DNA of 64,000 nucleotides, taken from positions 62,001-126,000 of the forward strand of contig NZ_AUIA01000017.1 in the NCBI RefSeq assembly GCF_000423465.1, given 5' to 3'. Below the pieces are notes generated by a model that saw only the letters and a program-made list of their open reading frames with translations, had not been told where the DNA came from and did no database searches. Positions 24,464-43,335 of the stretch are shown here, in pieces; position 1 is the stretch's first letter; every line of letters starts with the position of its first letter. Source of the stretch: Propionicicella superfundia DSM 22317. GTDB lineage: Bacteria > Actinomycetota > Actinomycetes > Propionibacteriales > Propionibacteriaceae. The position numbers were made by a program, and so were the translations under genes.

Positions 24464-25588
24464 ATGAGTGAGCAGCCCGACGCAGGACCCGATACCGTCA
24501 GGGACTTGCTCGACCTTGGATCGACTGAGGTCGACGACGTCGACGAGTCCGACGAGGTCGCATCTAAGGCGGTACCGATCTCCTACTTCGGGACCGAGTT
24601 CGACATCCACGGTCTCGTTCGGCGCTACAACGAGCGCTCGATCGTCGTCCCAACCTTCGACCCGACAGTAGAACTGCCCGACCCGAACGCTACGGGCTTC
24701 CAGCGCGGCCGGGTCTGGCGACGGCCCCAGCAGGACCGCTTCATCGAGTCGCTCCTCCTCGGCTATCCAGTACCTGGAATCTTCCTTGTCGAACAGCCCG
24801 GCAAGAAGTACCTAGTTCTAGACGGACAGCAGCGTCTGACGACACTCGCAGCGTTCTACACCAGTCAGTTCCGGCTTGATGCGGTCGACGACGCGTTCAA
24901 GTCAAAGACGTACGGAACGCTCAGCGACGAGGCCCGCCGCGGTCTTGACGACACCTTCATCCAGGCGATCATCATCCGCTCTCCGCAGTCAGTTGAGGAG
25001 TACGAGAGCGTTTACCAGATTTTCGAGCGCCTGAACTCCGGTGGAACCAACCTTCAACCACACGAGATTCGCGTCGCCCTATACGGCGGCAAGGCGGTCG
25101 AGGCGATCCGCGCGCTCAACAACGACACGAACTGGCGCAAGATCTTCGGGAAGCGCAGCGATCGACTCAAAGATCAAGAGTTGATCCTGCGCGTCCTGGC
25201 ACTGTACGCCGACAGCGGGAATTACGAAGCCCCCTTGAAGACGTTCCTCAACAACTTCCTCGCCAGTCACCGGAACGGTGTGGACGTTGATCTTGACGGC
25301 CTTGGCAGCCTGTTCACGCGAGCGACGGCGATTCTCTCTTCCCGAGACCGGATTTTCCGACTCCGCACCCAGGTGAACGCGGCCATCCTCGACTCGGTCT
25401 TCGTAGGTCTGATGCACCGGCTGGCGAGTGATTCCTCCGCGGACGTCGCCACTGAACAATGGTTGTCGGCGTACGACGCTCTCGTGGCAGCTCCCGAGTT
25501 CCTTGACGCCGTCACGAAGGCGACTGCCAACGAGGAGTCGGTGGCCACCCGCCTGCGTCTCGCGCGAGCCGCGTTCGCCGACGTATGA
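24464..25588 (+). CDS. DUF262 domain protein (ParB/Srx-fold, GmrSD-like N-domain)
   Basis: A 374-residue protein. Residues about 60-210 form the DUF262 domain: WRRPQQDRFIESLLLGYPVP, then YLVLDGQQRLTTLAAFY. The D-G-Q-Q-R motif (about residues 119-123) is the nucleotidase or nuclease motif of GmrS-type proteins, and FERLNSGGTNLQPHEIR is the usual follow-on. The C-terminal DUF1524 HNH nuclease domain of full GmrSD enzymes is absent. The last codons overlap the start of a HEPN gene (ATGA), giving a two-gene unit beside brxL. It probably acts in nucleic-acid-directed defence, with the HEPN protein as effector or partner. Confidence 0.8.
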   Translation: MSEQPDAGPDTVRDLLDLGSTEVDDVDESDEVASKAVPISYFGTEFDIHGLVRRYNERSIVVPTFDPTVELPDPNATGFQRGRVWRRPQQDRFIESLLLGYPVPGIFLVEQPGKKYLVLDGQQRLTTLAAFYTSQFRLDAVDDAFKSKTYGTLSDEARRGLDDTFIQAIIIRSPQSVEEYESVYQIFERLNSGGTNLQPHEIRVALYGGKAVEAIRALNNDTNWRKIFGKRSDRLKDQELILRVLALYADSGNYEAPLKTFLNNFLASHRNGVDVDLDGLGSLFTRATAILSSRDRIFRLRTQVNAAILDSVFVGLMHRLASDSSADVATEQWLSAYDALVAAPEFLDAVTKATANEESVATRLRLARAAFADV

Positions 25589-26076
25589 CCGCCTACGTCG
25601 ATCGGCGCTCCGCTATCAAGGCAGAGCTCCGCGAGATCGACGAACTCGTCCTTCTCGCGGACGCCGCTGAAGAACTCGCAGTGCGAGGCCACCTCGCACG
25701 TCTCGCGGTCATTCGTATGAGCGGGTTCATCGAGTCTGCTGTCCAGCACATGGCGAACGCGTACCTCGAAGAGCACTCGTCGCACCGAGTGCTCGCTTTC
25801 GCTCAGACGCAGGTTGGCAAGCAGACGAACCTCAATCCGACGAATCTCGAACGGCTCGTGGGGAACTTCGATGCCCAGTGGCGCGCCGAGCTGACGGATT
25901 TCCTCGCGCAGGACGAGCGTCGCCAAAGCCTTGGGAACCTGATCGGGGCCCGACACAAGCTGGCGCATGGCGGGAGTCAGGCGATCTCGACCGCAAACAT
26001 GCACACGTATCACAGGCTGACCGAGGAGGTTGTGAAGTTCCTCCTCGGCCGCTTCCTTCCGTTGCCTCGGAACTGA
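25585..26076 (+). CDS. HEPN-domain protein (predicted RNase) paired with DUF262
   Basis: A 163-residue, mostly helical protein. The motif GARHKLAHGG (about residues 121-130) contains R-x4-H, the catalytic motif of HEPN ribonucleases. The pattern RMSGFIESAVQHMANAYLEE earlier in the chain matches the MAE_28990/RiboL-PSP HEPN group. The start overlaps the DUF262 stop by four bases. Such pairing suggests a sensor/effector or toxin/antitoxin-like defence unit; which partner controls which is unknown. Confidence 0.75.
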   Translation: MTAYVDRRSAIKAELREIDELVLLADAAEELAVRGHLARLAVIRMSGFIESAVQHMANAYLEEHSSHRVLAFAQTQVGKQTNLNPTNLERLVGNFDAQWRAELTDFLAQDERRQSLGNLIGARHKLAHGGSQAISTANMHTYHRLTEEVVKFLLGRFLPLPRN

Positions 26077-26312: not shown

Positions 26313-28544
26313 TCAATCGACTGAACAGCTCGATCGAGATCGACTCGATCGCTGCGCGTCCTCCCCGCCGTCGACCACCGGGATCTTCACGTAGTGGACG
26401 CTGAACGCCGAGCCGATGAGGCGGAACTCCTGGTGGTTGCGGCCGAAGTCGAAGGGGTTGTCGCTCGGCTTCTGCCAGATGTCGAGGCCCTTGCCGAGGT
26501 CGATGCGCCAACCGTGGTTGGTCTCGATGCGGCGGTCGTGGATCGTGTCGTCGAGCCGGACCCTGAGGCGAACACCAACCGCGTCGGACGCGTCCTTGAT
26601 CGACTTGAGCATGAGCAACTGGTTGCGCTTGAACTCGGCCTTGGGCTCCTCCGTCGTGATGAGGTCGACGTCGATCTCGTCGGCGTCGTCCTTGGCCGCG
26701 GCGAGCAGGCTGAGCAGATCGGCGAGGTTGCGCCCCTGGTGCGGCATGCGGATGTACGGGTCCGTGATCGTGATCTTGGTCGCGCCGTGAAGGTAGGGCA
26801 GCAGGAGGGTCCCGTAGGAGACGCCCTTCTGGCCGGCCGTGAAGTCCCGGTGCCCCTCGGTCAGCGGGGAGACGGCCTCAGCAGCAACCTCCGGCGTCGA
26901 TGAGGCGGCGGCGGTCGCCGGGCCGCTGGTTGGCACCGGTTCAGCCGCCTCGGCCACGCCCCCGCCAGGCCCTCCGTCACCGTAAGGTGTCGCGTCGTAG
27001 CTGCGCCGGTACAGCTGCGGGTACTGGCTCTCTTCAAGGGTCGTGACCTCGTGCCACGTGCCCGTCTTGTCGGCGTACCGGAAGTTGACGGGGGTGTCGC
27101 GCATCGTGGCGTCGATCCGAAGGATCGAATCCTTGACGCGCTTGCGACCCTCGATCGCGAACTCAAGGAGCGCGCAGACCTCGTCCTCGGTGGCCTCGCC
27201 CGTTGGGTGTACGAGCTTCATCAGCCCAGAGAAGGTCTTGCGGACCCCGTCCTGGTCGCGCGTCGAGATCGAGGTGTCGAGCGTGAAGTAGTCCTTGTAC
27301 TTGTCCGAGAAGTCCTCGGTGCGCTTCGCCCGCAGGATCTCGGCGAGATAGTCGACGACGAAGCCGTAGCCCGCGGAGAACATCTCCGCGCGAATCGGGG
27401 CGACCTCCCACCCCGGCACATAGTGGTGGATGCGGTCGAGCCATGCCGGGTCGCGGTACGCGTCGGGCAACTCGTCGAACAGGTCGGTGTTCTTGAGCAT
27501 GTACGGCACCGTGTGCGTGGTGTTGCCGATGAATGCCATCGACGCCTCAGCGCCGTAAATGCTCGTACCTCGCGAGAACGACTTGTTCGCGAGGTAGTTC
27601 TTCATCACGTTGACGAGGTTCTGGTCGGTCCGCCGGTTCGCGGCGAACTCATCGAACGCGACGCAGTCCCAATACCCCACCAGGCCGATGCGTCCGCTCG
27701 CGTTGTTGACGAAGAGCTTGGCGACCGTGACTTCGCCGCCGGAGATGAGGATGCCGTTCGGGGAGAACTCGCTGAACGTGTGGGACTTACCGGTACCCTT
27801 GGGGCCGAGTTCAACGACGTTGTAGTTGCGCTCGACGAAGGGAATGAGGCGGGTCAGGGCAATAAGCTTGCCTCGCTCGTTGAACTGCTCGGGGTTGAGG
27901 CCGATCGACTGCATGAGCAGGTCGATCCACTCCTCTGTGGTGAACGCCTTGCGCGCCTCGTTGTAGTGGTCGATGTCGACGCCGGCGACCTGGATGGGCT
28001 TCAGGCTGCCGAGGATCCACGGCACGACACGCTGGTCGTCGGAGTGGAAGTACTCGATCTCGGAGATACACCAGACCCCGCCGACGAGGAGCTTGGGGTT
28101 CTGCTTGACCGTGACGTCGTCGATGATGACGCCCTTGACCTGGAGGTTCTCGAACTCGGCCTCGTGGACGTCGTTCTTCTCGTTGAGAGTGACGGTGACC
28201 CTGTCGATCACGCGGAGGAGGCCTTTGCGGCGGATCTCGGACTTCACGAGCATGTGCTCGTTGCGGTTCACGTAGTGGGTCGCAAGGATCTGGCGGACGC
28301 TGTCGATCCCAGCCTGGATCGTCGCTTCGTCGTCTGACGCCGCGTACTGGCCCAGCAGGTACTCCAGGACGTACGACGGCACGACGGCGTTCCCTCGGAC
28401 CGCTTTGACGAGGTCCTTGCGAACGACGGCACCGGCGAACTGCTCGTTGATCTTGTCGTCGAGCGCGGACTTCGCCGGGGTGGTGTCGGCCGCGTTCACG
28501 GCGAGGACATCGAACTCGCCGAGAGCCTCTTCAAGGTTCGTCAT
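26313..28544 (-). CDS. brxL: BREX protease-like ATPase BrxL
   Basis: Last gene of a type 1 BREX operon. BrxL is a Lon-related AAA protein that forms ring assemblies on DNA and is needed for phage exclusion. The protein has 743 residues. The N-terminal part (ALDDKINEQFAGAVVRKDLV, then PSYVLEYLLGQY) is the BrxL domain. Walker A VELGPKGTGKSHTFSEFSP is at about residues 245-262, and Walker B VAFDEFAAN about 60 residues on. The C-terminal half holds a Lon-type protease-like fold and EIDVDLITTEEPKAEFKRNQ. The ATG at 28544 is preceded by AGGAG, and the gene follows pglZ by 7 bp. The last 15 residues (Arg/Ser rich) look non-conserved. Confidence 0.93.
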   Translation of the reverse strand: MTNLEEALGEFDVLAVNAADTTPAKSALDDKINEQFAGAVVRKDLVKAVRGNAVVPSYVLEYLLGQYAASDDEATIQAGIDSVRQILATHYVNRNEHMLVKSEIRRKGLLRVIDRVTVTLNEKNDVHEAEFENLQVKGVIIDDVTVKQNPKLLVGGVWCISEIEYFHSDDQRVVPWILGSLKPIQVAGVDIDHYNEARKAFTTEEWIDLLMQSIGLNPEQFNERGKLIALTRLIPFVERNYNVVELGPKGTGKSHTFSEFSPNGILISGGEVTVAKLFVNNASGRIGLVGYWDCVAFDEFAANRRTDQNLVNVMKNYLANKSFSRGTSIYGAEASMAFIGNTTHTVPYMLKNTDLFDELPDAYRDPAWLDRIHHYVPGWEVAPIRAEMFSAGYGFVVDYLAEILRAKRTEDFSDKYKDYFTLDTSISTRDQDGVRKTFSGLMKLVHPTGEATEDEVCALLEFAIEGRKRVKDSILRIDATMRDTPVNFRYADKTGTWHEVTTLEESQYPQLYRRSYDATPYGDGGPGGGVAEAAEPVPTSGPATAAASSTPEVAAEAVSPLTEGHRDFTAGQKGVSYGTLLLPYLHGATKITITDPYIRMPHQGRNLADLLSLLAAAKDDADEIDVDLITTEEPKAEFKRNQLLMLKSIKDASDAVGVRLRVRLDDTIHDRRIETNHGWRIDLGKGLDIWQKPSDNPFDFGRNHQEFRLIGSAFSVHYVKIPVVDGGEDAQRSSRSRSSCSVD

Positions 28545-28551
28545 GGCTCTC

Positions 28552-31044
28552 CTAGAAGTCGAAGTCCGTCGTGAACGACCGCCTGATCGTGTAGTTCCCC
28601 TTGGAGAATGTCTTCCACTGCGTCGTGTTTGGGATCGGCTCTTCGAGCCGCAACTCGACGGGCCTGTTGTTGTATTCGTCGGCGTCCTGGGTCAGGTACA
28701 GGACGGCCTTCTGGTACCGATCGCGCTGATCCTCGGATGCGCTGTCGAAGGTCAGGACGGGCTGGTCGGAGATCGGGGTCTCCCCAACGTACAGGCCGAG
28801 CCGGACCTGGCGCGGTTGGATCTTGTCCGTGACGGCCTCGCGCTGGAGCAGCTTGACCGCGATCTGGCCCGTGGTGATCTTGTCGGTCTCCGGCATGAGG
28901 TCGACGTTGACCGGGCGGATGTCGCTCTTGCGCTTCTTGTTGACCGTGATCACCGGGACGACGATCTCCTGGAGGGCCGCGCCGCCGTGGACGTAGCGAG
29001 TGCCAGCGCCGGGCTGCGGGATGCGGTGGATCGACTTGGGGATCTGGATGTCCAGGTCGCCCGCGAGCCCGGCCTGCGCCGAGGTGAACGTCATGAACGA
29101 TGGAGACGGCTTCAGCGAGCGGCCCAGGACGTAGCGACGGTTGGTCTTCGTCACGGCATCGCCCTGGGGGGTCCGCGAGACATAGCACGACTGCTCCAGC
29201 GGAGTGTCCTGATAGAGGAACCCGTGGTCCGCGGTGATCAGGATGTTCGTCGCGTTCGCGTTGGTCCACTTCTTCACGAGAAGAAGCAACTCACGGAGGG
29301 ACTCCTCGGTCGCCTCGAAGACGGTTCGCTCTGTCGAGGCCTTGTCGCCCGCCGCATCGATGCGGTCGTGGTAGACGTAGAAGATCTGGTGCTTCGTATA
29401 CAGCTCACGAAGCTCGATTCCCGGCATGGCCAGTACCTCGGCGGCCGTGATGGCGTGCCCTCTGACCGCCTGGAGGATCTTGTCGCGGTTCGCGGTGCCG
29501 TTCGTCGGCTTCCCGTCCGCCAGCACCGGCAGACCTTCGGGGTCGAGCTCCAGGCTCGACTGCGGGAGCAGCGACGCCATGCCGAGTTGCGTGTAGCTCG
29601 GCAGCGAGCCGAGCACAGCCGAGAGCGAGGCGTCGAAGCGGTCCTCACCCCGGATCATGGATGCCAGTTCCTCGGCAACCTCGTAGCGCATGCCGTCGGA
29701 GATGATGACGACCGCCTTGGTGCGGCCGTCCTTGACGACGGGTGCGACATCGCGGTCGAAGAACCTCGCCTGCGGCGCGAGCACGGCAGACTTCCACTCG
29801 CCCATCGGCTCGATGGCCTGCTGCCACAGCCCGCCGAAGTCGTAGAGGTACTTGTTGGCGTACTGCTTGTCGACCTCGGTCTTGAGTGCTTCGAGCGGCT
29901 TCTGGAAGTCGGCCGTCTGGTGGGCGTAGGTGAACCACCGGTACTGCTGGTCGATGCGGTACCAGTCGGACTGGTATTTCTCCAGGCCCAGCGCGGCTGA
30001 GGCGATGGTGTGCGGCAGGCCGGCGATCGCTGCGAGCAGCTCGGATGCACTCTGGATGGCCTGGTAGAGCTTGGCGTACTTGGCCTTCCACAGGCTTTCC
30101 TGGCGCTGTCGGACGAGGTCTGCGACTTCACGCGGCGTCACCGACTGGGTGGCGACAGCGGCGGCGAGATCGACGATGACCTTGCGGTCAACGTCCTCGA
30201 AGATCGTGACCTTGGCCAACTCACGGAAGTCGCGGTGCTCGATCTTGGACTTCACGTCTAGCGCGTCGGCCGCGCGGGAGGCCAGCGCCGTCATCACGTC
30301 CTGGGTGCGGACGTCGTAGCGCAAAGCGTTGAAGTCGCTGCGGATGTTGCGGAACTCGTCGGGTGTGGTCGAGGCGAAGTCTTCGATGGCGCGACCGAAC
30401 ATCCACAGGACGAAGTCGTCGATCGTCGGGGTCTTGCTCGGGTACCTGTAGATGTTGGCAAGCCCGTCCCAGAAGAACTGGTCGAGGCCGTAGGTGACGA
30501 GTTCCTCGAATTTGGCGGTTCTCCCGGCGGCGTTCTCGACGAGAACCTCGCGCACGATGTCGGTGAGCTTGTGGCCCGATGCCTTGACGAGCACCTGGCA
30601 CATCTTGGCGCGCAGGCGGGCGGTGTCGTCCCCGTCGTCCAGGAGCCTCAGCAGCGCCTGCTTGCGACTGTTCGCTGCGAAGAACTTCTGGTGCTGCTCG
30701 ATCACCGACACCAGCGCCGGATCGTTGAGCCCAAGCTCCTGCTGAAGCATCGAGGTCTTGTCGGCGGTGAAGACGCCGTAGGCGAGCTCCAGGTCGAGCA
30801 GCCAGTTTGCGGTGCCGCGCGGCAGGTCACCGGAACGGTAGACGAGGTGCTTGCTGACATGGTCGGCGAGGAGGGTGTTCTTCACGCCGAACTCGTTGTC
30901 CTCGACACGGATGATGTTGACCGCGTCAAGGTCCAGCGCGTCGAGGTCGGCAGCGTACTCACCGGCAGGGTCATGCCAGAACACGACCCGCTGCGAGACG
31001 AGTCGGCTCTGCAGGGCGTCTTGGATGGAGGTCAGATCAGTCAC
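28552..31044 (-). CDS. pglZ: BREX phosphatase-like PglZ (type A)
   Basis: An 830-residue alkaline-phosphatase-superfamily protein, the marker gene of BREX. It starts MTDLTSIQDALQSRLVSQRV (GTG), the usual PglZ N-terminus followed by VVFWHDP. The metal-binding core appears as KAVVIISDGMRYEVAEEL (about residues 438-455) and ILITADHGFLYQD (about 598-610), matching the D-x-M-R and D-H-G motifs of the family. The GTG overlaps the stop of the AlbA-type gene (GTGA), so they are coupled. Its biochemical substrate in BREX is still unsettled. Confidence 0.93.
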   Translation of the reverse strand: MTDLTSIQDALQSRLVSQRVVFWHDPAGEYAADLDALDLDAVNIIRVEDNEFGVKNTLLADHVSKHLVYRSGDLPRGTANWLLDLELAYGVFTADKTSMLQQELGLNDPALVSVIEQHQKFFAANSRKQALLRLLDDGDDTARLRAKMCQVLVKASGHKLTDIVREVLVENAAGRTAKFEELVTYGLDQFFWDGLANIYRYPSKTPTIDDFVLWMFGRAIEDFASTTPDEFRNIRSDFNALRYDVRTQDVMTALASRAADALDVKSKIEHRDFRELAKVTIFEDVDRKVIVDLAAAVATQSVTPREVADLVRQRQESLWKAKYAKLYQAIQSASELLAAIAGLPHTIASAALGLEKYQSDWYRIDQQYRWFTYAHQTADFQKPLEALKTEVDKQYANKYLYDFGGLWQQAIEPMGEWKSAVLAPQARFFDRDVAPVVKDGRTKAVVIISDGMRYEVAEELASMIRGEDRFDASLSAVLGSLPSYTQLGMASLLPQSSLELDPEGLPVLADGKPTNGTANRDKILQAVRGHAITAAEVLAMPGIELRELYTKHQIFYVYHDRIDAAGDKASTERTVFEATEESLRELLLLVKKWTNANATNILITADHGFLYQDTPLEQSCYVSRTPQGDAVTKTNRRYVLGRSLKPSPSFMTFTSAQAGLAGDLDIQIPKSIHRIPQPGAGTRYVHGGAALQEIVVPVITVNKKRKSDIRPVNVDLMPETDKITTGQIAVKLLQREAVTDKIQPRQVRLGLYVGETPISDQPVLTFDSASEDQRDRYQKAVLYLTQDADEYNNRPVELRLEEPIPNTTQWKTFSKGNYTIRRSFTTDFDF

Positions 31045-32483
31045 TTGGTAGCCTCCAAGAACGCGCGTCCAGCGTCGGTGATTCGATACCGCTGAGCCTT
31101 GCTGCGCGGCTTGTCAGGCACCGTCATCGCGAGCAGGCCCGCTTCGATGAGCGGGGCGACGTGGCGTGTGTAGTTCTGCGACAGCGGCTTGAGGCCGACT
31201 GCTTCGAGGAGGATGTTGCGGTGGACGGGACCTTCGACTGCCGCGCTCAACATGCCCACATCATACCTACCGACATGCCTACCCTCATTGCTACGCGCGT
31301 AGGTATCTTGCTCGGCCGACCTGGGTGTCGCCGAGTGGTCGGCCACGTGGATCGTGACGCGGACCCGGTCGACGATCTCCTCGATGTCAGGGGCGGGGAG
31401 GCCGGCCTTCGCGATCTCGCTATAGACGCGGTTGACGCCGCTACCCCACTGTTCGATGAGCCCGGCGTCTCGGAAGATGCGGGCGAGGGACGGGTTACGC
31501 AGCCGCGACACCCCGCGCATCGTCTCCACCGTCATGCCGGACACGAGGCCGCCGGGACTCTCGACCACGATGCGGTTGTCGTAGAAGCCGACACGGATGG
31601 GCGTACCGCGCTCCGCATAGCTCGCATGAACGAGCGCATTGATGATCACCTCACGGATCGCCTCGACGGGGATCGAGTAGACATCTTTGCGACGCGCCTC
31701 ACCGAACACGCCCGTCTTGTAGGCGTGCTTGGTCAAGAAGGCCATCACGTCATCAACCGCCTGCGGGAGGGGCTTGTGAATCTCGGCCTGGTCGAAGATG
31801 TCGATGCCCTCTGGGCCGCGAAGCCGCCCGCACTGAACCCACGCTGAGGGGAGGAACAGGGTCGGTTCAGCACAGGCGGCGAGGATCCCGGCATTGGTCG
31901 GCACGACCTGCGTCCCATGCTTCACCGCGAGACCGAGAGCGACGAGATCCTTGGCGGTCGTGGCACGCCCCCGGAGGTTGCCGAGCTGTGCGAGATCGAG
32001 GTCTGCGAGCGACGCGCGCGGCTCGGGCAAGTCCTCGAATGCCACGCCCCTCGCGGTGCGCTCCAACTCGGCCACCAGCGCCGGGTCGGCCTGACGGGTC
32101 GTCGACCCGAGGCGCACATAGACACCGCCGTCGATGCCCTGCGCCTTCATGTAGTGCGGGCGTCGCGTGCTCAGGGGCACCTCGACTACCAGCACGGTCT
32201 CGCCAGCGACGGTGGCGAGGTCGATCGCCGGAACGAGCTGCGGCTCGATGCTGTCCGCGATCAGGCTTGCGAGCCGCTCCTCCTCGGCGAGAGGGTCGGC
32301 CACCCCGACGACGGTGCCGTCGTCCGCGACGCCGACCACGAGCTGCCCGCCGGCGGAGTTCGCGAAGGCCACGATGGTGCGAAGTGGCTTGGTCGGTGAG
32401 GACAGATCGCGCTTGTACTCACGGGTCTTTCCTTCGAGCGCGGCAACCCGGCCATCCGCATGCAGCGCCCAGAGATCAGCCAT
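31041..32483 (-). CDS. AlbA_2 / HATPase_c_4 ATP-binding protein within BREX
   Basis: A 480-residue protein. The ATG at 32483 is used because GGGAG stands 8 bases before it and MADLWALHADGRVAALEGKT begins the conserved part. The first 130 residues are a Schlafen/AlbA-2 domain (KTREYKRDLS, then ANSAGGQLVVGVADDGTVVG). Residues about 230-380 are the ATP-binding HATPase_c_4 type (REVIINALVHASYAERG, then RNPSLARIFRDAGLIEQWGSG). A winged-helix region ends the chain (LKPLSQNYTRHVAPLIEAGL). Genes of this kind occur between pglX and pglZ in some BREX loci as an accessory; the role is unknown. Confidence 0.82.
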   Translation of the reverse strand: MADLWALHADGRVAALEGKTREYKRDLSSPTKPLRTIVAFANSAGGQLVVGVADDGTVVGVADPLAEEERLASLIADSIEPQLVPAIDLATVAGETVLVVEVPLSTRRPHYMKAQGIDGGVYVRLGSTTRQADPALVAELERTARGVAFEDLPEPRASLADLDLAQLGNLRGRATTAKDLVALGLAVKHGTQVVPTNAGILAACAEPTLFLPSAWVQCGRLRGPEGIDIFDQAEIHKPLPQAVDDVMAFLTKHAYKTGVFGEARRKDVYSIPVEAIREVIINALVHASYAERGTPIRVGFYDNRIVVESPGGLVSGMTVETMRGVSRLRNPSLARIFRDAGLIEQWGSGVNRVYSEIAKAGLPAPDIEEIVDRVRVTIHVADHSATPRSAEQDTYARSNEGRHVGRYDVGMLSAAVEGPVHRNILLEAVGLKPLSQNYTRHVAPLIEAGLLAMTVPDKPRSKAQRYRITDAGRAFLEATK

Positions 32484-32499
32484 CACGATCTCCCATCGG

Positions 32500-33444
32500 T
32501 CACTCGGACGCTTCCAGGCCCGCGATCTTGCGGAGTGCGGCACCGAACTTCGGGTAGTTCGTCCTGACCCCGTCGTCAAGATCGATGGTGACGTTCTCCG
32601 AGGCCTTCGGATACAGGGTCTCGTGCTCGTACTCGTTGAGCTCGACGAGGATGCGGCGGAGCCGGTCGGACTCGGGCGCGTTCCCGGCACGCTCGGCCTG
32701 CTGGAGGGCCGACTCCAGCTTGGTCACGTACTCGCGCAGGTAGGTCAACACCGTCGAGACGGTCGAGGGCGTGTAGCGGTGCATGTAGATGAGCGCGTTG
32801 AACGTCCCCTTGGGGCTGGAGAACAGCCAGTAGATCGGCCGCTTCTTGTAGCGCTGGACGTGATCGTCGTAGAACTTCGAGGACGAGCCGCGCGCCGTGG
32901 TCCTGATGAAGTAGTCGCGAAGGCTCTTCACCCCGAGCGTCTCGTTGACGAACCGCAGGTTCTCCTCGAAGTACTGCGCGCCGAAGACCGTCCGGAGGAA
33001 CAAGCGGAACCGCTCGACGATGTCGTCCTCGAACCAGTCGCTGTCGACGATCGGGACGACGTTGTCCTTGTCCGGCATGAACGTGGGGTTCGGGACTCTG
33101 GCGAGGTAGTCGTCGAGCGTGGATCCCTGGTCGCCGAGGATGAGCCCTGTCTCGTCCACACTGTAGCGGCCGAACATGCAGCCGACGGCGTAGGAGATGA
33201 GGTCGACGATGGCGGACTGCGCGAACAGGGCGTCGCGCTCTTCGGGCGTCCTGTTCGGCCACCGGAACGCGGAGTTGTTCGTCAGTGACACTCGTTCGAG
33301 AGGCACGTACGACGGCACCTCGTCCTCGAGCCCGTACAGCTTCGCAACAGCCTCGTTGTTCGCGATCTCCAGTTGCTGCTGGGCAAGCGAGCGCGCCGCC
33401 CACTCGTCGCGGTGCTGTGCAACGGTCTCTTCAAGAGTCTTCAA
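32500..33444 (-). CDS. pglX: PglX C-terminal domain, separated from the rest of pglX
   Basis: Encodes 314 residues that correspond to the last quarter of a BREX class 1 PglX methyltransferase: SYAVGCMFGRYSVDETGLIL, FYDDHVQRYKKRPIYWLFSS, YMHRYTPSTVSTVLTYLREY and the end IDLDDGVRTNYPKFG. It begins with TTG at 33444, with GAGG 8 bases upstream and a TGA three codons before it, so it can be translated on its own. Upstream in the same frame the codons read N-P-S-stop-G-T-Q-L, which echoes the end of the N-terminal piece (N-P-L-V-S-G-T-stop at 36035). A junction at GGYAC would fuse both in frame to about 1,167 residues, a normal PglX length. Confidence 0.85.
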   Translation of the reverse strand: MKTLEETVAQHRDEWAARSLAQQQLEIANNEAVAKLYGLEDEVPSYVPLERVSLTNNSAFRWPNRTPEERDALFAQSAIVDLISYAVGCMFGRYSVDETGLILGDQGSTLDDYLARVPNPTFMPDKDNVVPIVDSDWFEDDIVERFRLFLRTVFGAQYFEENLRFVNETLGVKSLRDYFIRTTARGSSSKFYDDHVQRYKKRPIYWLFSSPKGTFNALIYMHRYTPSTVSTVLTYLREYVTKLESALQQAERAGNAPESDRLRRILVELNEYEHETLYPKASENVTIDLDDGVRTNYPKFGAALRKIAGLEASE

Positions 33445-33505: not shown

Positions 33506-33532
33506 GGAGGGGTAGCCATTGGGGTAGCCGAT
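33506..33532. repeat. GGGTAGCC repeat downstream of the recombinase gene
   Basis: Contains GGGGTAGCCATTGGGGTAGC, two tandem copies of a 10-bp unit. A nearly identical direct copy lies at 34789-34813 on the other side of the recombinase gene. This is the pattern of arm-type integrase sites. Confidence 0.6.
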
Positions 33533-33547: not shown

Positions 33548-34759
33548 CTACCGGCCCAAGCCCAGCAAGTCCGCGGACGCCACGAGCGCAGCGCGGGTTC
33601 GCGTCCGGTCTGTGTGCAGGTAGGACTGGGTGCTCAGCACCGAGGAGTGCCCGAGGATCGCTTTGATGGTGGTCTCGTCGATACCGTTGGCGAGCAGCAG
33701 GGTGGCGGCGGTGTGCCGCGCCTCGTACAGCAAGGGGCGTCGCGTCCGGCCGTCGGGGAGCGTCACGGTGACCTGCGCCTGGTCGGCGATCTCGCACCAC
33801 TGACGCCGGTCGAGCTCGGCCGATCGCGGAGCGCCGTCGTCCCGTGGCCAGACCAGCCCGTGAAGAGAGGGCGCCTGCCCACGCCACGACTTGAGGGCGT
33901 GGGCCAGCCAAGGGACGAGCGGGATGACTCGGCTGCCTGCGCGGGTCTTGGGACGCACGAGATGGTAGGCGCCTTGCAGGTGGCGAGACTCGAAGCCGCG
34001 CGGAACGCGGAAGCCGCTGTCAGGATTGCGGTGCTCGACGTACGGGAGCGCTTTGAGTTGCCAGGCGAGCGTCATCGTCTCGCTGTCAAGGTCAACCATC
34101 TCCCAGGTCAAGCCGAGCGCCTCGGCAGGGCGGAGACCTTCTACGAGCGCTGCTACCCAGCGCGACGCGTCGGGCCGGTCGGCCGCCACGGCGAGGATCT
34201 TCATCGCGTCGGCGATGGTGAGCGACTGCCTCGGCGAGGGCCCGAGGCCGGGGCTTGCCGTCTCCCGTGCGCGTTGGCAGACCTGGTACCCGTCAGCGAC
34301 CGCGTCGGCGAGGAGCTTGCCCAGTACAGCGTGGGTGCGCTGCATCGTGGCGAGAGCCAGCCCTGCGTCCTCTTGCGAGGCGGCCACCTTGCGGATATCC
34401 GATGGCGTCAGGGAGTCGAGCCGCAGGTGCCCAATGGTCGGGACGATCCACCGGCGGACCGCTGAGCGGTCCGAGACGAACGTGCCGGGGCGCACGATGC
34501 GCTGGCGTTGGGCGAGCCACTGGTCGGCCCAGCGCTTCATCGTGACGGTGGCGAATGGTGCGGCGGGCCCCTCGGTCGCGATGCGTCGCTGAGCCTCGGC
34601 CAGCCGGGCACGTACCTCGGCTTCGGTCCGCGCCTTGAGCGTGAGCCGATGCCGGGTTCCGTGCGCCGTCCAGCCGGCCTCGATGACCGCGACCCACTGC
34701 CCCCGCGAGTTCTGGTAGACAGAACCTGATCCTTTGCTGCGCTGCTTCGACCTGGACAT
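33548..34759 (-). CDS. tyrosine site-specific recombinase (phage-integrase family)
   Basis: A 403-residue recombinase. The first 65 residues, GSGSVYQNSRGQWVAVIEAG, resemble the arm-binding AP2-like domain. A SAM-like core-binding domain follows (TVTMKRWADQWLAQRQRIVR). The catalytic domain has Arg210 (EGLRPAEALGL), Arg348 with His349 (YEARHTAATLLLANG) and the nucleophile Tyr380 (STQSYLHTDRT). The His of the usual HxxR box is Tyr345 here, a tolerated but uncommon change. ATG 34759 is preferred to an upstream TTG. It sits between two halves of pglX, next to an inverted silent specificity cassette, and so is the prime candidate for the inversion or excision enzyme. Confidence 0.88.
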   Translation of the reverse strand: MSRSKQRSKGSGSVYQNSRGQWVAVIEAGWTAHGTRHRLTLKARTEAEVRARLAEAQRRIATEGPAAPFATVTMKRWADQWLAQRQRIVRPGTFVSDRSAVRRWIVPTIGHLRLDSLTPSDIRKVAASQEDAGLALATMQRTHAVLGKLLADAVADGYQVCQRARETASPGLGPSPRQSLTIADAMKILAVAADRPDASRWVAALVEGLRPAEALGLTWEMVDLDSETMTLAWQLKALPYVEHRNPDSGFRVPRGFESRHLQGAYHLVRPKTRAGSRVIPLVPWLAHALKSWRGQAPSLHGLVWPRDDGAPRSAELDRRQWCEIADQAQVTVTLPDGRTRRPLLYEARHTAATLLLANGIDETTIKAILGHSSVLSTQSYLHTDRTRTRAALVASADLLGLGR

Positions 34760-34788
34760 CCCCAATCGTCACAGTCTCGGCCGGACCA

Positions 34789-34813
34789 GGAGGGTAGCCA
34801 TCGGGGTAGCCAT
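34789..34813. repeat. GGGTAGCC repeat upstream of the recombinase gene
   Basis: GGAGGGTAGCCATCGGGGTA followed by GCCAT; direct copy of the repeat at 33506-33532. It lies about 30 bp upstream of the recombinase start and could also affect its promoter. Confidence 0.6.
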
Positions 34814-34895: not shown

Positions 34896-34921
34896 CACAG
34901 TTCATGAAGGACGAGTACCCG
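34896..34921 (+). repeat. 26-bp inverted repeat, silent-cassette copy (IR-L)
   Basis: Core CACAGTTCATGAAGGACGAG, then TACCCG. It is identical, in inverted orientation, to 37116-37141. Sequence identity stops abruptly on both sides, as expected at a recombination boundary. Confidence 0.85.
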
Positions 34922-36026
34922 GACGCCAAGCAGGATCTCTACGGCGCCTTTATCCTGCGCGGCATCGAACTCGCCGATGGCGCCGCGTTGCTCGCCATCG
35001 TGGTCGGGGACGCTTGGATGTCCCTCAAGTCATTCGAGGAGCTACGGCGGCGGCTGCTGGACGGTCACTCCTTCGAGTCTTTCCTGCACCTCCGGGATAC
35101 CGCCTACCACGCGGATACCTTCGGCGCGAACACCGCCTTCGTGCTGTCGATGACCGGAAACCGCAGCCGGCACGCGCCGTTCGTCCGCCTCACACCCCTC
35201 GGGTCCGAGCCCAAGGACAAGGACCTGCGCGTCGCTCTTGCTGAACGAACCGGGCAAGCAGGGTTCTTCTACAAAAAAAACGGCCATCCCCGGCTCGCCG
35301 ATCGTTTACTGGCTCAGTGAAAAGATGCGGACCGCGTTCAAGGTCGGGAAGCCGCTTGGCGAGCTCGCTGAGCTGTTGGTGGGTCTACGGACGGGCGACA
35401 ACGGCCGCTTCATGCGGCAGTGGTGGGAGGTGTCGCAGGATCGCACGATGTTCGACTGCGAGTCGCTGGAGAGTGCCGGTTCAAGTGGGCGGCGTTGGTT
35501 CCCCTACAACAAGGGCGGCGCGTTCCGGAGGTGGTACGGCAACCAGGAACACGTCATCAACTGGGAGCACGATGGCCGGGAGATCGAGGAGGGGCTCGCC
35601 GAGCGATACCCGTACATGGTGCCGAAGGGCAAGAAGCTGGTCCGGGGGCAAGGCCGTGACCGGTACTTTTCACCGTCCGTGTCATGGTCCGACATCTCAT
35701 CCGGGGAGGCCGCGTTCCGCCGCTACCCCCAGGGCTTCATCCATGACTCGACAGGTCACTCGGGTTTTGGTGATCCGACGATGCTGGACCAGATCACCCT
35801 GCTGCTGAACTCCAGTTTCGTGATGGGCGTCATGAAGGTGGTGGCACCCACGCTTCACTTCCACATCGGGTATGTGGGGCTCGTCCCGGTCGCCGAGGAG
35901 ATCAGAGAACTTCCGACGGACAGTATCAACCGCCTCGTTGAGACTTCGCGAGAGGACTGGAACGTTGCGGAGACGTCGTGGGGGTTCACGAAGAACTCGC
36001 TGGTCGAGTTGTCGACGTTGACTTGA
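34904..36026 (+). pseudogene. pglX: silent inverted pglX specificity cassette, frameshifted
   Basis: Encodes, on the strand opposite to pglX, about 374 residues matching pglX from just after the NPPY motif to the end of the N-terminal piece. The first part (FMKDEYPDAKQDLYGAFILR) differs strongly from the active copy. The second (AIPGSPIVYWLSEKM, RWFPYNKGGAFRRWYGNQEH, then YFSPSVSWSDISSGEAAFRR) is close or identical. The two parts are in different frames; the shift falls in a run of eight A at 35273-35280, and seven A would restore FFYKKTAIPGSPI. No catalytic motif, promoter or ribosome site is present, so it is a donor cassette. Confidence 0.88.
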
Positions 36027-36082
36027 TCCAAGCGTCATGTACCTGAGACCAGAGGGTTCTTCGTGAACCCCCACGACGTCTC
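35970..36082. repeat. 27-bp perfect inverted repeat at the meeting of the two cassettes
   Basis: Arms 35970-35996 and 36056-36082 encode the shared A-E-T-S-W-G-F-T-K-N end of the active and silent copies. Further inverted identity of about 65 bp (near 35664-35728 and 36324-36389) and 45 bp (near 35281-35328 and 36712-36757) lies further out. Confidence 0.85.
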
Positions 36083-38593
36083 GGCGATATCCCAGTCTGC
36101 TTGTGCCGACTCAGCGAGGTCAGCAAGAAGGTCCGCTGGGAAATCCTCAACCCCAGGCGCGACCGGTACCAACCCGACATACCCGATATCGAAGTGCATG
36201 GTCGGGGCGAGCACCCGTAGCATCCGCGTGACAAGCGTCGAGTTCAGAAGAAGTGCTAGCCGGTCAAGAAGCGCCTCCTCGCCAAACCCGGAATGCCCTG
36301 TGTTCGCGTAGATGTATCCCGACGGGTAGCGGCGGAACGCGGCCTCCCCGGATGAGATGTCGGACCATGACACGGACGGTGAAAAGTAGGTGTCCGTGTT
36401 CTGCGCCCTTGATCGGGGGCGCCCGCCGCGCCCCGCTCCGAACACCCGGATCTCTGCGCCGTCGTTCTCCCAGTTGACGACGTGTGCCTGGTTCCCGTAC
36501 CACTTCCGGAAGTCACCTCCCTTGTTGTACGGAAACCAACGCACACCGCTGGCTGCGGCCTCTTCACGCGACGTGCAAGCGAACGCCGCACGGCTCCCCG
36601 AGACCTCCCACCACTGGCGCAGGAACTGGCCGTTGTCGGCAGTCGCCAGCCCCTGGCGAAGGTTCGCGACCTCGCTCAAAGGCTTCCCCGTCGAGAAGGC
36701 CGCGCGCATCTTTTCACTGAGCCAGTAAACGATCGGCGAGCCGGGGATGGCCGAAAAGTCAGCCTGCGACACCTCGTATCGGTTGTACGTGCTGTCACGG
36801 AACAGCGCCTCGATCGCGGCCACGGACCTGACATCGACGTGCTGTTCGAAGAGCCGTCGGTAGACGCCCCGCGCCGTCGCAGGGCGCACGTTGTCAACGA
36901 CGAACGCGACAGTGCCGAAGTCCGATCCAAAGATCCCGCGTCCTAGGTGTGCCATTGACGCGATCCGCTGGTCCTGGAGCAGGTCGTGCCGGAGGTCTTC
37001 GAACGACTTCAGCGACATCCACGACGGGAGGTTGATCATCGCCCAGACGCCGCGGGGTGCTGACAACACCTGAGCCCGAACCATGAACGCCGTCATGAGA
37101 TCGGACTTGCCGGTCGGGTACTCGTCCTTCATGAACTGTGAAAGCAGGGCGTTCATCTGCTTGCTGCCCATGTAGGGCGGGTTTGCCACCACGACCGCGT
37201 AGCCGCCCGTCAGGTACGTGGCTTGGTCGATGACGCGCTGAGCCCAGTCGAGTGCATCAGCGCGGAGGATGTCGCCGTCCGCGTCGAGCGTCGCGAGGTG
37301 GTCTGCAAGACGGGCGGTCAGCGCGGGATCCGGCTGGATGAGGGAGCCGAATGTGTCGGCGTTCACGAACTGGTTCCAGAACGCTTCCTCCGCGTGCCGG
37401 TCGCCGTCCTTGGTGACGAGGTAGCTCAGCTCGTCGGCGCTGAAGGAGATCGGGTCGAGCACGCAGACGTTCGGCTCGACCGGGTTCTTGAGGAAGAGCT
37501 TGCGCTTGGCCGCAGCTTTCATCGTGAGGGCGAATGCCGCGAGCACTCCGGCACGGGGGTCGATCTCTGTGCCGTAGAGGTTGTTCGTGAGGATCAGTCC
37601 GGGGATCTGCGAGGGGGTGTAGCCCTCCTCCTCGTAGATCGCGTAAAGGAGATCGAACGCGTAGGTGAGCATGTGACCCGAACCGCACGCCGGGTCGATC
37701 ACCGTGAGTTCCTCGGGCTTGGTGATCGTGAGGAAGTCGGTCTCCTCGTCGACCGGGGCGATGTAGTAGTCCATGCGGTCGACCAGACTGGACTCTGGGT
37801 GGTTGAGCATCCACAGTCGCCCCAGGGAGTTCTCGACGAGGTAGCGAACGATCCAGTGCGGGGTGAAGAGCTGGGTGGCTGCGGGGATCTCGTCGGCACC
37901 GGCCTTCTTGTTCTTCTTGAACCCGGCGAAGACCTCGTCCTTCCGCTCGGCGACGTAGAACTGGTAGAGCCAACCGATGGCCTCGACGTCCTGGCAGACC
38001 TCCTCGGTGAGCACCCTGACGGAGCGGCTCAGGACGGAGTCCTCGGCGAGCACGTTGGCCGGGATGAGCAGTTCCGTGAAGTCGCCTTCGCGTTCGAACA
38101 TGAAGGGCATGGCTCTGTTCCAGAAGCGGCAGTAGTCCGCGAGGAGGAGCGCGTATGCCTCGGCCTGGGCGTCGACACCCGGCCGGGGCTTGCGGGTGCC
38201 GTTGAGCAGTCCTGTGACGGTCGCGGCGCTCGCGCCCTTGACCACATCGCCGTCGAGCTGTCCGCGCTTGGCCGCGGCCAGTGCCTCGGGCTGGCCGACC
38301 TGGTCAGCCGCGGGTGAGACGACGCCGATACTGGTGTAGCCGTTGGCGTCCATGAAGCGCAGGGCGATGATGCGGTTGAACCAGGTGTAGGCGACCTTGT
38401 CGGCGACATGCGCCCTGCCTTTGACGCCCCCTCCCCCGGCGGCGATGGCCCGTTCCAGAGCGGATACGGCTCGCGACTGCTCGACGCGCTCGGGTGACGC
38501 CTGAGCAAGTACGGCGGTAATGCGCGCGCCCACCTCGCGGATGAGTTCCGTGCGCGCCCACGTGGCGAAGGACCTGAGCGGTGCGGTATCCAT
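36035..38593 (-). CDS. pglX: BREX adenine methyltransferase PglX, catalytic and specificity part
   Basis: An 852-residue protein that starts MDTAPLRSFATWARTELIRE, overlapping the brxC stop by one base. S-adenosylmethionine motif I is VIDPACGSGHMLTYAFDLL (near residue 300). The N6-adenine motif IV is VVVANPPYMGS (NPPY at 471-474). The specificity region follows, then the conserved YFSPSVSWSDISSGEAAFRR and AETSWGFTKNPLVSGT ending at TGA. A full PglX continues for about 300 more residues; these are encoded separately at 32500-33444. PglX marks host DNA in BREX, so this piece sets which site is methylated. The 26-bp repeat at codons 485-493 is the boundary beyond which the silent cassette can replace it. 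Confidence 0.92.
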   Translation of the reverse strand: MDTAPLRSFATWARTELIREVGARITAVLAQASPERVEQSRAVSALERAIAAGGGGVKGRAHVADKVAYTWFNRIIALRFMDANGYTSIGVVSPAADQVGQPEALAAAKRGQLDGDVVKGASAATVTGLLNGTRKPRPGVDAQAEAYALLLADYCRFWNRAMPFMFEREGDFTELLIPANVLAEDSVLSRSVRVLTEEVCQDVEAIGWLYQFYVAERKDEVFAGFKKNKKAGADEIPAATQLFTPHWIVRYLVENSLGRLWMLNHPESSLVDRMDYYIAPVDEETDFLTITKPEELTVIDPACGSGHMLTYAFDLLYAIYEEEGYTPSQIPGLILTNNLYGTEIDPRAGVLAAFALTMKAAAKRKLFLKNPVEPNVCVLDPISFSADELSYLVTKDGDRHAEEAFWNQFVNADTFGSLIQPDPALTARLADHLATLDADGDILRADALDWAQRVIDQATYLTGGYAVVVANPPYMGSKQMNALLSQFMKDEYPTGKSDLMTAFMVRAQVLSAPRGVWAMINLPSWMSLKSFEDLRHDLLQDQRIASMAHLGRGIFGSDFGTVAFVVDNVRPATARGVYRRLFEQHVDVRSVAAIEALFRDSTYNRYEVSQADFSAIPGSPIVYWLSEKMRAAFSTGKPLSEVANLRQGLATADNGQFLRQWWEVSGSRAAFACTSREEAAASGVRWFPYNKGGDFRKWYGNQAHVVNWENDGAEIRVFGAGRGGRPRSRAQNTDTYFSPSVSWSDISSGEAAFRRYPSGYIYANTGHSGFGEEALLDRLALLLNSTLVTRMLRVLAPTMHFDIGYVGLVPVAPGVEDFPADLLADLAESAQADWDIAETSWGFTKNPLVSGT
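37116..37141 (-). repeat. 26-bp inverted repeat within active pglX (IR-R)
   Basis: Inverted copy of 34896-34921, placed at codons 485-493, 10-15 codons downstream of NPPY. Reading frame is kept across it, so recombination with IR-L joins the silent cassette in frame. The two repeats bound a 2,246-bp segment (34896-37141). Confidence 0.85.
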
Positions 38594-41500
38594 CAGAGCG
38601 TTATTCGCTTGCCGTCGTTGAGGGTCTCGACGAGCGCGTTGCGCAGCGCGGCGAGGTAGTTGTCGACGTCGTTCTCGGATTCGAGGACGCCGGAGACGCC
38701 CGTGACCTGGATCGTCTTGACCGAGACCATCGACGGCGACGGAGCGTCATCTCCACCGCTCTGCTGCGACGCAACGAGCTGGCTCAGGAGCTCCGGGTAG
38801 TCGTTCTGCTCGAAGGTCGCCCCTGCCTGGAGGACGAGCGCGATCTGGCTCTCACCGTCGAGCCGCGCGAGAATCGCGTCGATACTGCGAATCACAGTGC
38901 TCTGCGCGGCGGGGGTGGCGTTGGCGTAGTACGCGCTGCCGAGGATCTCAGCCTTGCGTCCCTCGATCGCGTCGGTCACGTCGGAGCGCTTGTCGGCGAT
39001 GACGTCGTCGATCTGACCCCGCAACGCGTCGGCCGAGGCCTTGAGCTGGTTCATCTTGTTGCCGCGGAAGGCGTTGGCGTCGCCGAGCAGGGTCTTGATG
39101 GCGTCGGCGCTGCCTGCGGGGAGGTAGCTGAGGTTCCCGGTGTTGGCGTTCAGCAGGGTTTGCGCGTCATCGAAGATCTTGGCTTGCTGGCCGTGGAGGA
39201 AGGACTTGATCGGGTCGACGAGGTCTTCCTTGGCTTCGAGCAGTTCGTCGGCCTTGTCGAAGTCGGTGAGGTACCAGTCGACCTGCTTGCCGACGACCTC
39301 GTCGAGCACGGCGACGACGCCGGAGAGCTGGGCGACGAACGGGTACCGGCTGCTGCTCACGAGGCCGTTGAGCTCGTCACGCCGGGACGTGAGCTGGTCC
39401 TTGCCGAACCTGGCCAGCTCGGCAGGGTCGCTCGGCACGGCGCCCTCATCGAAGAAGTCGGCGCAGAATCTCTTGAAAGAGGAGACCTTCGCCTGGTCAT
39501 AGGCCTTCTGCGGGGCGACGACGACGTGTTGCTGCTTGGTCGTGTTCCGGATGAGGGCCACCGCCTCGGTTCGAACGACCGGGTTGGAGTCGACGCTCAG
39601 CGAGACCTTCCCGTTGCCGACGAGCCAGCCCAGGACAACCTCGATGGAGCCGAGATCCCAGCCGTAAGGCTTGGTCTCGAAGCGGTTCACGATCTTCTTG
39701 ATGGTCACCTGTTCGCCCAGGCCCGTCTGGGTGATGATCCAGGACTCCACCTCGGCGCCCGGAGAGACGAGGACACTAGAGCTTCCAGCGCTGAACAGCC
39801 CATGGTCGTTCTGCACCGCTCCGGCGACCTGCTGTTCGGGGTACACCTTGCCGCCGAGCAGGCCGAGGTTCGTGTAAGTCCGGCTCACCAGTTCCTGGAA
39901 CCCGTCCGTCAGCCGAGTCACTGCATCCTGAGAGCTGGAGGGGATCTCCGCGGCGTTGATGATCAACTGCGCCTTGCCAACGGCCTGGCGCAGGCGCTCG
40001 ACGAGTTCCTTCTCGCGGTCGGCGTTGAGGATCTGCTTGGACTGCAGGATCGCCTGCGTCGAGGGGGTGGCGCCGGAATTGGTGCGCTGCTTGGTGTACT
40101 TCTCGGTCTTGAGGAGCAGGCGCAGGTCTGCGAGCAGGCGCTTGTCGCGGCCGAGGAAGACCCGCAGTTCGTCTCGGCCCATGCTCTGAGTCGCGATCTC
40201 GGAGTCGCTGTAGCTCGTCTCGGGCGTGATGAAGTGGATGGTCAACTCACGCTGGTTTCCCTGGACGATGTCGTCGAGCTTGTAACCGAATGAAAAGTCC
40301 TGGCCGTTCTTGAGGTACTTGAGCTTGTTGGTCTTCAGGATGTCGGACGAGAGGTAGCGGAAGAGCTTGCTGGAGACCTCGGACGAGTCGATGTCGACCG
40401 CCTTGATCTCCTTCTCGATCTCTTGTTCCTCGTTGGTGAGGTACTCGTAGACGTTGCCGTTGCGCTGGACGTACGACTGGGTCTCCAGCAGGTTGAGTGC
40501 CTCCTGCACCTGCTTGCCCAGGCCTGTGAGGTCGAGGCCGAAGCGGTCGTAGACGAGCACGGTGAGGTTGCGGGGCGTGGCCTTGAAGGTGTCGACGTAC
40601 TTGACCAGGAACAGCGCCTTGAGCAGGCGGTTAGCGACGATCGTGACATCGGAGCCGGGGTCGGGCAGGTGCCTCTCGGCCTGAAGGATGGCGCTCTGGG
40701 CGGCCGACTTCAGCGCGGCGCTGATGCCCGCGAACATCTGGTCGAAGGTTGCGAGGCCGCCGACCTGTTCGGTGCCGATACGCTTGGCGACCTCCTGGAC
40801 CACGCCGAGCATGGAACGTTCGCCGACCGAGCTGTTCTTGCCCTCGAACATGTTGTGGTCCGACAGACCCTCGATGGCGGCCTGGAACATCGGGATCTGG
40901 TAGGTGACGAACGGGTAGGTGTTGATGAACCGGGCTTCGTCGATGTAGTTGCGGTAGGTTTTCGCGCCGTCGACGAAGTTGAAGATCGTCGGGAAGTTGC
41001 CCGCTTCCGTGGAGTAGATCAACGCGAGTGCGGCAGTGCCCGCGGCGTTCTTCTCCAGCAGGCGCTTGCTGATGACCTCTTCGACGTCCTGACTGGTGAG
41101 CTTCACCTTGGCGCTGAACCGCGCCTGGATCTTGGAGAAGTCGTTGCCCTGCTGCCTGGAGCGGTCGCCGATGACCTTGTCCATGTCCTCTTGCGAGGTG
41201 ACGAACACCCACGAATGTCCCTTGCACTTGGTGTTGAGGGACTCGGCGATGGTCTGGAGGTTGAGCATCAGCTTGACGTCGTCGGCGATGAACTGCCCGA
41301 CCTCGTCGACGAAGAAATTGAGCCGGAATCCAGGCTCCTGCTGGTCGATCCACGCCTTGACCGATGCAGCGAAGTCCTCGATCGAGACGGCATAGGACTT
41401 CTGGTACTGGGCGATGATCCCGGAGTTCGCCTCACCGTTGACCTCAGTGAACGCCTTGTCGATGTTGTGACCTTCGAGTGCGGTCTGCTCGCGCCCTTGC

Positions 41501-42072
41501 GACCAGTCGATGCCGGCGTGCTTGGCGAAGGCGGCCTTGAACGCCTCGTACTGACCGCGTTTGTCGAGGTCCTCCTCGAAGCGGGCGACGGCGCCGTCAT
41601 TGCCGAAGTAGCCGCGGCTCTCGTCGAAGACCTTGACGAAGACCTTGAGCAGGGCATCGGTCTGGTCCTTGACGATGAGGGTCGCCTTCTGGTCGATATT
41701 GAACAGCAGACTCTTCGCCGGAATCGAGGCGGCTTTCTTGAGCGAGGCGATGAGCATCGCGTCGTCGGTCTTGCTGAGGAAGCTCTCGCTGACCTTCTCG
41801 CGGGGGAACGCCTGGCCCTCGACATCACCGAGGAGGTGCGCGAGCATCTTGAGTAGGTGGGACTTACCAGAGCCGAAGAAACCGGATATCCACACGCCGT
41901 TGGCGTTCGCGTAGTTGGTGTACTCCTCCAGCAGCGGCGCGACGCCCTTCGCGGCGTCATTGGTGAAGACGTACTCCTCGACCTCGATGCCAAGGTGGTC
42001 GACGTCGTCGGCCTTGACGACGCCCTCGATCGAGCGGGTGACGTCCTTGAGGAAGATCTCGCTGAGTTTCAT
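38593..42072 (-). CDS. brxC: BREX P-loop protein BrxC
   Basis: A 1,159-residue ATPase of the BREX core. The N-terminus MKLSEIFLKDVTRSIEGVVK is the BrxC type. Walker A GFFGSGKSHLLKML is at about residues 64-77. The Walker B-type FFVDEVGQFIADD is near 260, and an arginine-rich segment DRSRQQGNDFSKIQARFSAK follows. The long C-terminal part is helical with coiled-coil character. It starts 4 bp after brxB and its stop shares a base with the pglX start, so the operon is tightly coupled. BrxC is thought to act as a motor or switch in the complex. Confidence 0.93.
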   Translation of the reverse strand: MKLSEIFLKDVTRSIEGVVKADDVDHLGIEVEEYVFTNDAAKGVAPLLEEYTNYANANGVWISGFFGSGKSHLLKMLAHLLGDVEGQAFPREKVSESFLSKTDDAMLIASLKKAASIPAKSLLFNIDQKATLIVKDQTDALLKVFVKVFDESRGYFGNDGAVARFEEDLDKRGQYEAFKAAFAKHAGIDWSQGREQTALEGHNIDKAFTEVNGEANSGIIAQYQKSYAVSIEDFAASVKAWIDQQEPGFRLNFFVDEVGQFIADDVKLMLNLQTIAESLNTKCKGHSWVFVTSQEDMDKVIGDRSRQQGNDFSKIQARFSAKVKLTSQDVEEVISKRLLEKNAAGTAALALIYSTEAGNFPTIFNFVDGAKTYRNYIDEARFINTYPFVTYQIPMFQAAIEGLSDHNMFEGKNSSVGERSMLGVVQEVAKRIGTEQVGGLATFDQMFAGISAALKSAAQSAILQAERHLPDPGSDVTIVANRLLKALFLVKYVDTFKATPRNLTVLVYDRFGLDLTGLGKQVQEALNLLETQSYVQRNGNVYEYLTNEEQEIEKEIKAVDIDSSEVSSKLFRYLSSDILKTNKLKYLKNGQDFSFGYKLDDIVQGNQRELTIHFITPETSYSDSEIATQSMGRDELRVFLGRDKRLLADLRLLLKTEKYTKQRTNSGATPSTQAILQSKQILNADREKELVERLRQAVGKAQLIINAAEIPSSSQDAVTRLTDGFQELVSRTYTNLGLLGGKVYPEQQVAGAVQNDHGLFSAGSSSVLVSPGAEVESWIITQTGLGEQVTIKKIVNRFETKPYGWDLGSIEVVLGWLVGNGKVSLSVDSNPVVRTEAVALIRNTTKQQHVVVAPQKAYDQAKVSSFKRFCADFFDEGAVPSDPAELARFGKDQLTSRRDELNGLVSSSRYPFVAQLSGVVAVLDEVVGKQVDWYLTDFDKADELLEAKEDLVDPIKSFLHGQQAKIFDDAQTLLNANTGNLSYLPAGSADAIKTLLGDANAFRGNKMNQLKASADALRGQIDDVIADKRSDVTDAIEGRKAEILGSAYYANATPAAQSTVIRSIDAILARLDGESQIALVLQAGATFEQNDYPELLSQLVASQQSGGDDAPSPSMVSVKTIQVTGVSGVLESENDVDNYLAALRNALVETLNDGKRITL

Positions 42073-43308: not shown

Positions 43309-43335
43309 GCCGATGACCTCCGAGTTTGGATGCGC

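Follow-up and report, generated by a model that had tools for sequence, protein, structure and literature searches.

A methyltransferase of type I BREX, PglX, is encoded in Propionicicella superfundia DSM 22317 by two genes instead of one, and our best reading is that it probably works as a two-subunit enzyme whose specificity half can be exchanged by DNA inversion. This reading rests on sequence alone, and translation of the second chain, its docking onto the first, and inversion in living cells are inferred. The window analyzed was a stretch of 64,000 nucleotides (assembly GCF_000423465.1, contig NZ_AUIA01000017.1, positions 62,001 to 126,000). It contains brxA, brxB, brxC, pglX, pglZ and brxL together on the minus strand between 26313 and 43353: BrxA (42688-43353), BrxB (42077-42886, an ORF whose true start is probably further in), BrxC (38593-42072), the PglX N-part (36035-38593), a tyrosine recombinase (Int, 33548-34765), the PglX C-part (32500-33444), an AlbA_2/HATPase accessory gene (31041-32483, with its start chosen at the first ATG after the C-part stop), PglZ (28552-31044) and BrxL (26313-28544). 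Just beyond brxL, a GmrSD_N-domain gene overlaps a RiboL-PSP-type HEPN gene (24464-26076, plus strand), which looks like a small defense pair next to BREX.

The detached C-part is real, intact and very probably translated. It encodes 314 aa from a TTG start with no internal stop, and it matches PglX C-termini in PADLOC (PDLC02531, 2.2e-142) and in NCBIfam, where it covers positions 905-1209 of NF033452. The N-part covers positions 1-901 of the same model and, therefore, little or nothing is missing. This is the only PglX locus found in the genome assembly, and positions 904-1209 of the family model are matched nowhere else in it. The TTG is the only start codon in its frame because the frame opens 9 nt upstream. 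The sequence-only reading had proposed that the detached part is under selection, that PglX may work as two polypeptides, and that the specificity part is exchangeable while the C-part is constant. Our data support this interpretation, with some corrections. GAGG, within an SD-like GTGAGG, lies 7 nt before the TTG and not 8. The next gene does start 16 bp on, but it is the AlbA_2/HATPase accessory gene and not a core BREX gene. Also, the open frame, which had been taken as evidence, proves little here, since an antisense ORF of 373 aa covers much of the same stretch and 204 ORFs of at least 100 aa lie in the window. The evidence is instead homology, codon constraint and recurrence.

Next, the position of the break was compared with solved structures of fused PglX. 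The N-part aligns up to residue 886 of Salmonella PglX and the C-part picks up by about residue 929, while two long spacer helices have been placed at 850-960 in that structure (PMC11341690). When aligned with 16 fused relatives, the break sits in the variable-length loop between ..SWGFTKNPL and KTLEETVAQ. A 2026 survey of BREX describes a double-helical spacer followed by a wHTH and a coiled-coil-like tail (PMC12839542). The N-part (852 aa) thus carries the N-terminal domain, the methyltransferase, the TRD and spacer helix 1, and stops 4 residues after NPL. The C-part keeps spacer helix 2 and a linker (residues 1-76), followed by the conserved C-terminal domain (residues 77-314). The four side-chain ligands of the E. 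coli BrxX metal site (PMC11842806) map to D125, D127, D140 and Y235 of the C-part in an assignment made by hand from the alignments, and they are present in 10 of 10 split loci. No intein family was matched on either part. An AlphaFold2 model of the C-part was poor (mean pLDDT 58) and was not used.

The arrangement recurs in other bacteria. Recombinase plus C-part were found in 10 distinct actinobacterial loci, each with an inverted second specificity copy, and the expressed N-part is on the contig in 7 of these. Rathayibacter, 73-13 and G282 (G numbers are our labels for genomes) run into contig ends, so that their N-parts are not seen and their inverted copies are seen only in part; in 73-13 only site A' (described below) is present. 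Among 391 genomes of the order, 23 have a C-part match, at 24 places. The frame is 317-381 codons (detached) at 5 places and 960-1245 codons (fused) at 18, and one weak match (G302) was set aside. The 4 other detached loci show the recombinase and an inverted copy beside the C-part, whereas none of 16 fused loci (G098 and G102 were not included) has a recombinase match. The recombinase at 77% identity or more occurs in 6 of the 391 genomes: the 5 split loci and G362, whose contig ends in the gene with an inverted PglX copy beside it. Five other recombinases at 41-51% identity have no PglX match beside them, in loci of about 4 kb. No relative was found in viral contigs. A broader scan of genome contigs used MKTLE-type and AQHR-type peptide patterns and so favors detached forms of this kind; only the order-wide and phylum-wide searches give fair proportions. 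Of 265 plasmid records with a match, five were opened.

The start of the C-part is kept across the split loci. In 10 of 10, the codon before K-T-L-E is a start codon (8 TTG, 1 GTG, 1 ATG) with AGG 6-8 nt upstream, and 0 of 10 carry an internal stop. In 7 of 10 the frame opens only 9 nt before this codon, and in Rathayibacter too it is the only start in the frame; G198 and G282 have other possible starts further up. This is the strongest sequence evidence that the C-part is translated by itself. A promoter and terminator scan found nothing; no sigma-70-type promoter was detected (0.4 expected by chance), and other promoter types are not covered by the scan.

Selection on the C-part was estimated by counting-based pN/pS, since no maximum-likelihood omega could be read from an IQ-TREE run. 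Over the 10 split loci, pS is 0.58-0.60 for residues 2-76, residues 77-314 and Int alike. Synonymous sites are partly saturated at this level and, thus, the ratios are approximate. pN/pS is 0.102 (95% bootstrap 0.063-0.148) for residues 2-76, 0.316 (0.270-0.365) for residues 77-314 and 0.220 (0.190-0.252) for Int. In 16 fused relatives, residues 77-314 give 0.263 (0.220-0.309), a little lower than in the split loci, and residues 2-76 give 0.793 (0.724-0.858). Purifying selection therefore acts on the C-part, and residues 1-76, which are as variable as a TRD in fused PglX, are the most constrained stretch measured in split PglX. Mean identity for residues 1-76 is 0.89 between 6 split loci and 0.21 between 15 fused ones (G338, whose frame is broken in its N-part, was left out), while N 1-484 (0.70 and 0.72) and C 77-314 (0.76 and 0.76) are alike. 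We read this as fixation of a common adaptor. That its partner is spacer helix 1 is an inference, and spacer helix 1 itself is only moderately more conserved in split loci (0.43 vs 0.28), which is weaker than a docking model would like. The specificity halves differ between and within loci while residues 1-76 stay constant, but those of split loci are also more alike than those of fused loci (TRD 0.47 vs 0.33), so the constant stretch may suit only one class of TRD.

Trees of both flanks intersperse split and fused forms. For C 77-314 (from which G280b was missing because a pattern missed it), 6 changes are required, at least 4 of them forced by well-supported branches, and 0% of 200 bootstrap trees place the split rows in one group. 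For N 1-484 (without G338), there are 5 changes, at least 3 of them forced. In both trees the window groups with fused G064, in the first together with Rathayibacter. Against G064 the window has 79% identity in N 1-484, 4% in C 1-76 and 78% in C 77-314, while against the other split loci C 1-76 is 83-92%. Raw identity alone would not settle this, since split G198 has 79% and 77% on the two flanks and, thus, the mosaic claim rests on tree support. The tree of C 1-76 is badly resolved because the fused rows are very long (2 changes, 36% of bootstrap trees with one split group). The simplest account is that a module from the specificity halves to about C-part residue 76 recombined into different resident pglX genes, with each resident C-terminal domain then continuing as a separate chain. 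Repeated return to the fused form is not excluded. A bolder possibility, which we hold only tentatively, is that the stretch from the specificity halves through the recombinase to residue 76 is a mobile module that enters resident pglX genes by homologous recombination through the conserved methyltransferase part and the C-terminal domain. It would turn a one-chain PglX into a two-subunit enzyme with switchable specificity, with spacer helix 2 and its linker fixed as a general adaptor that lets one C-subunit serve many recognition halves.

The layout between the two parts is consistent with switching by inversion. An inverted silent copy of the specificity half, from site A to spacer helix 1, lies on the plus strand at 34896-36026. 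Exact inverted repeats link the expressed copy (minus strand) and the silent copy (plus strand): site A (26 bp, 37115-37140, core CACAGTTCATGAA) and A' (34896-34921); repeat B (49 bp, 36705-36753), at the hinge between methyltransferase and TRD, and B' (35281-35329); repeat B2 (65 bp, 36324-36388), within the TRD, and B2' (35664-35728); and repeat C (27 bp, 36056-36082), at the end of spacer helix 1, and C' (35970-35996). G198 has an exact inverted repeat of 300 bp and G366 one of 188 bp. The core CACAGTTCATGAA is present in 7 of 7 expressed and 10 of 10 silent copies of the split loci, but it is exact in 0 of 16 fused genes, where the best match in the 120 nt from the NPPY motif is 9 of 13. 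The recombinase motifs GLRP[AS]E, YEARHT and GHSS..[SP]YLH, with R, RH, GH and the tyrosine that are probably catalytic, are aligned in 10 of 10 split loci. A direct repeat pair, GGCTACCCCGATGGCTACCC, with a 12-bp period lies upstream of int (34792-34811, minus strand), with a second copy downstream (33510-33529, minus strand). Paired GGCTA[CT]C repeats of this period occur upstream of int in 9 of 10 loci (one member only in G282) and downstream in 8 of 10. They are proposed as recombinase arm or operator sites, but this role is a guess. Three types of first-half segment each occur expressed in some loci and silent in others; for example, the window's expressed segment is 94% identical to the silent one of G198. 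This support for inversion is indirect, as one assembly shows one orientation only.

The specificity halves end on their own. All 6 complete expressed halves stop 4-16 residues after NPL, and 5 complete silent halves are open and end in their own stop. The window's silent half is frameshifted near an A8 run at about 35275-35282, which in this GC-rich locus could be a slippage switch, decay or an assembly error. G012 (positions 4300-6648 of its locus) keeps site A, the recombinase and an intact C-part, although both TRD halves seem deleted and its N-part is cut to 632 aa. This could be a real deletion or an assembly collapse at the inverted repeats. An intact C-part alone, then, does not prove a working pair.

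Taken together, we propose that the two chains rejoin by packing spacer helices 1 and 2 against each other, as they do within one chain in ordinary PglX. The recombinase would flip the segment between sites A and A', swapping the expressed specificity half for the silent one, and exchanges at hinge repeat B would mix halves further. Each specificity half ends in its own stop codon and the recombinase gene lies beyond it, so in this model the C-terminal domain can only be supplied in trans, and one constant C-part serves every variant. An effect on phage specificity is likewise inferred. One observation on fused PglX does not favor the model: the isolated Salmonella C-terminal domain, cut elsewhere, could not be expressed (PMC11341690).

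A second split at the same loop was found in three Collinsella-type loci. Collinsella aerofaciens (NZ_OY725717) has an 836-aa pglX ending in NPLV, a 202-aa ORF, a 322-aa C-part annotated as a hypothetical protein, and then pglZ and brxL. Genomes G1036 and G846, one genus by their labels and with C-parts 68-73% identical to that of Collinsella, have the same break with about 2.2 and 5.5 kb of other genes in the gap. A stop reported inside the G846 match is, by its coordinates, the terminal stop of the C-part. The genes in the gaps of these loci (L066 5119-5727, L083 5583-7788 and L084 1559-7033 in our locus numbering) include the 202-aa ORF, which has no Pfam match and has a 29% relative in G846, and several other ORFs. 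That the same loop is broken in a distant group, with C-parts intact, supports the view that PglX works in two pieces. The gap before pglZ also takes varied cargo elsewhere. Matches to the window's AlbA_2/HATPase gene sit in the same gap in Rathayibacter (51%), G012 (36%) and fused G036 and G280, but not in the other split loci, and a Methylomonas koyamae plasmid BREX carries a PDDEXK nuclease gene and a Shedu-family gene between pglX and pglZ (L064 4803-7119).

Another possible explanation is that the C-part is translated but acts as a separate BREX subunit, a DNA-binding or adaptor protein for the BrxB-BrxC-PglZ complex, rather than docking by the spacer helices. Residues 1-76 are far more conserved than their helix-1 partner (0.89 vs 0.43), as if they had another fixed partner, and the E. 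coli study suggests that the BrxX-specific terminal domains may act within a larger BREX complex (PMC11842806). However, the split leaves one helix of the spacer pair in each chain, and in the E. coli structure the TRD and C-terminal domain together line the DNA groove, so we consider this explanation unlikely. It is less likely still that the split state is one phase of a switch and that rearrangement restores a fused pglX in part of the population. A recombinase and several inverted repeats do lie between the two parts, and phase-variable pglX is known. Yet no exact direct repeat of 15 bp or more occurs in the five split modules examined (window, G198, G012, G366 and G282), the exact inverted repeats of the window all lie on the far side of int from the C-part, the complete halves end in their own stops, and the C-part has a conserved start and SD of its own, needless if fusion were the working form. 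Least likely is that the C-part is a nonfunctional leftover of a pglX broken by insertion of the recombinase cassette: the frameshifted silent copy, the loss of the TRD in G012 and the weak TTG start in 8 of 10 loci fit this, but the absence of internal stops, the conserved start and SD-like sequence, the pN/pS values and the tighter constraint on residues 1-76 than in fused PglX all speak against it.

The role of the C-terminal region of type I PglX has been called unknown (PMC11341690), and a natural two-chain PglX would let that region be removed, titrated or swapped without touching the catalytic chain. It also shows where PglX tolerates a break, which would help in building PglX with changed specificity, and it suggests that BREX can change its target by DNA inversion while keeping its contacts with the rest of the complex constant. 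Annotation can miss such systems, as the Collinsella C-part illustrates. Among the openly licensed papers searched, no title or abstract dealt with a two-chain PglX, and no word beginning with split, integrase, recombinase or invert occurs in the main text of the 2026 survey (PMC12839542). PADLOC, however, has a PglX model of 359 positions that the C-part matches best, so such pieces may have been clustered before.

The nearest described case is the phase-variable PglX of Lacticaseibacillus rhamnosus/casei type I BREX, in which L. rhamnosus has a full-length pglX and a partial one with an integrase between (PMC7513527). Both systems are type I BREX with a site-specific recombinase beside pglX and a second partial pglX copy. 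In that case a full-length PglX (1198 aa) is present, while here the complete expressed chains end after spacer helix 1 and a separate gene supplies the C-terminal domain. Compared to the fused PglX/BrxX of Salmonella and E. coli (PDB 8c45, 8q56, 9ewz, 8zek), the two parts together cover the whole protein in order and keep the metal-site residues, but they are two chains cut in the loop between the spacer helices. The Collinsella aerofaciens, G846 and G1036 loci share an N-part ending in NPLV or NPLI and a stop, with the C-part as a separate intact ORF further down the operon. They differ in that no recombinase match or inverted copy was found, one or more unrelated genes lie in the gap, and the C-part is only 39-42% identical to that of the window. 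Invertible or shuffling HsdS of type I R-M and half-S subunits (PMC3874165; PMC6265443) likewise have recognition domains joined through helical spacers and specificity changed by recombination. HsdS is a separate specificity subunit, whereas here methyltransferase and TRD stay in one chain and the piece after the spacer loop is split off and constant.
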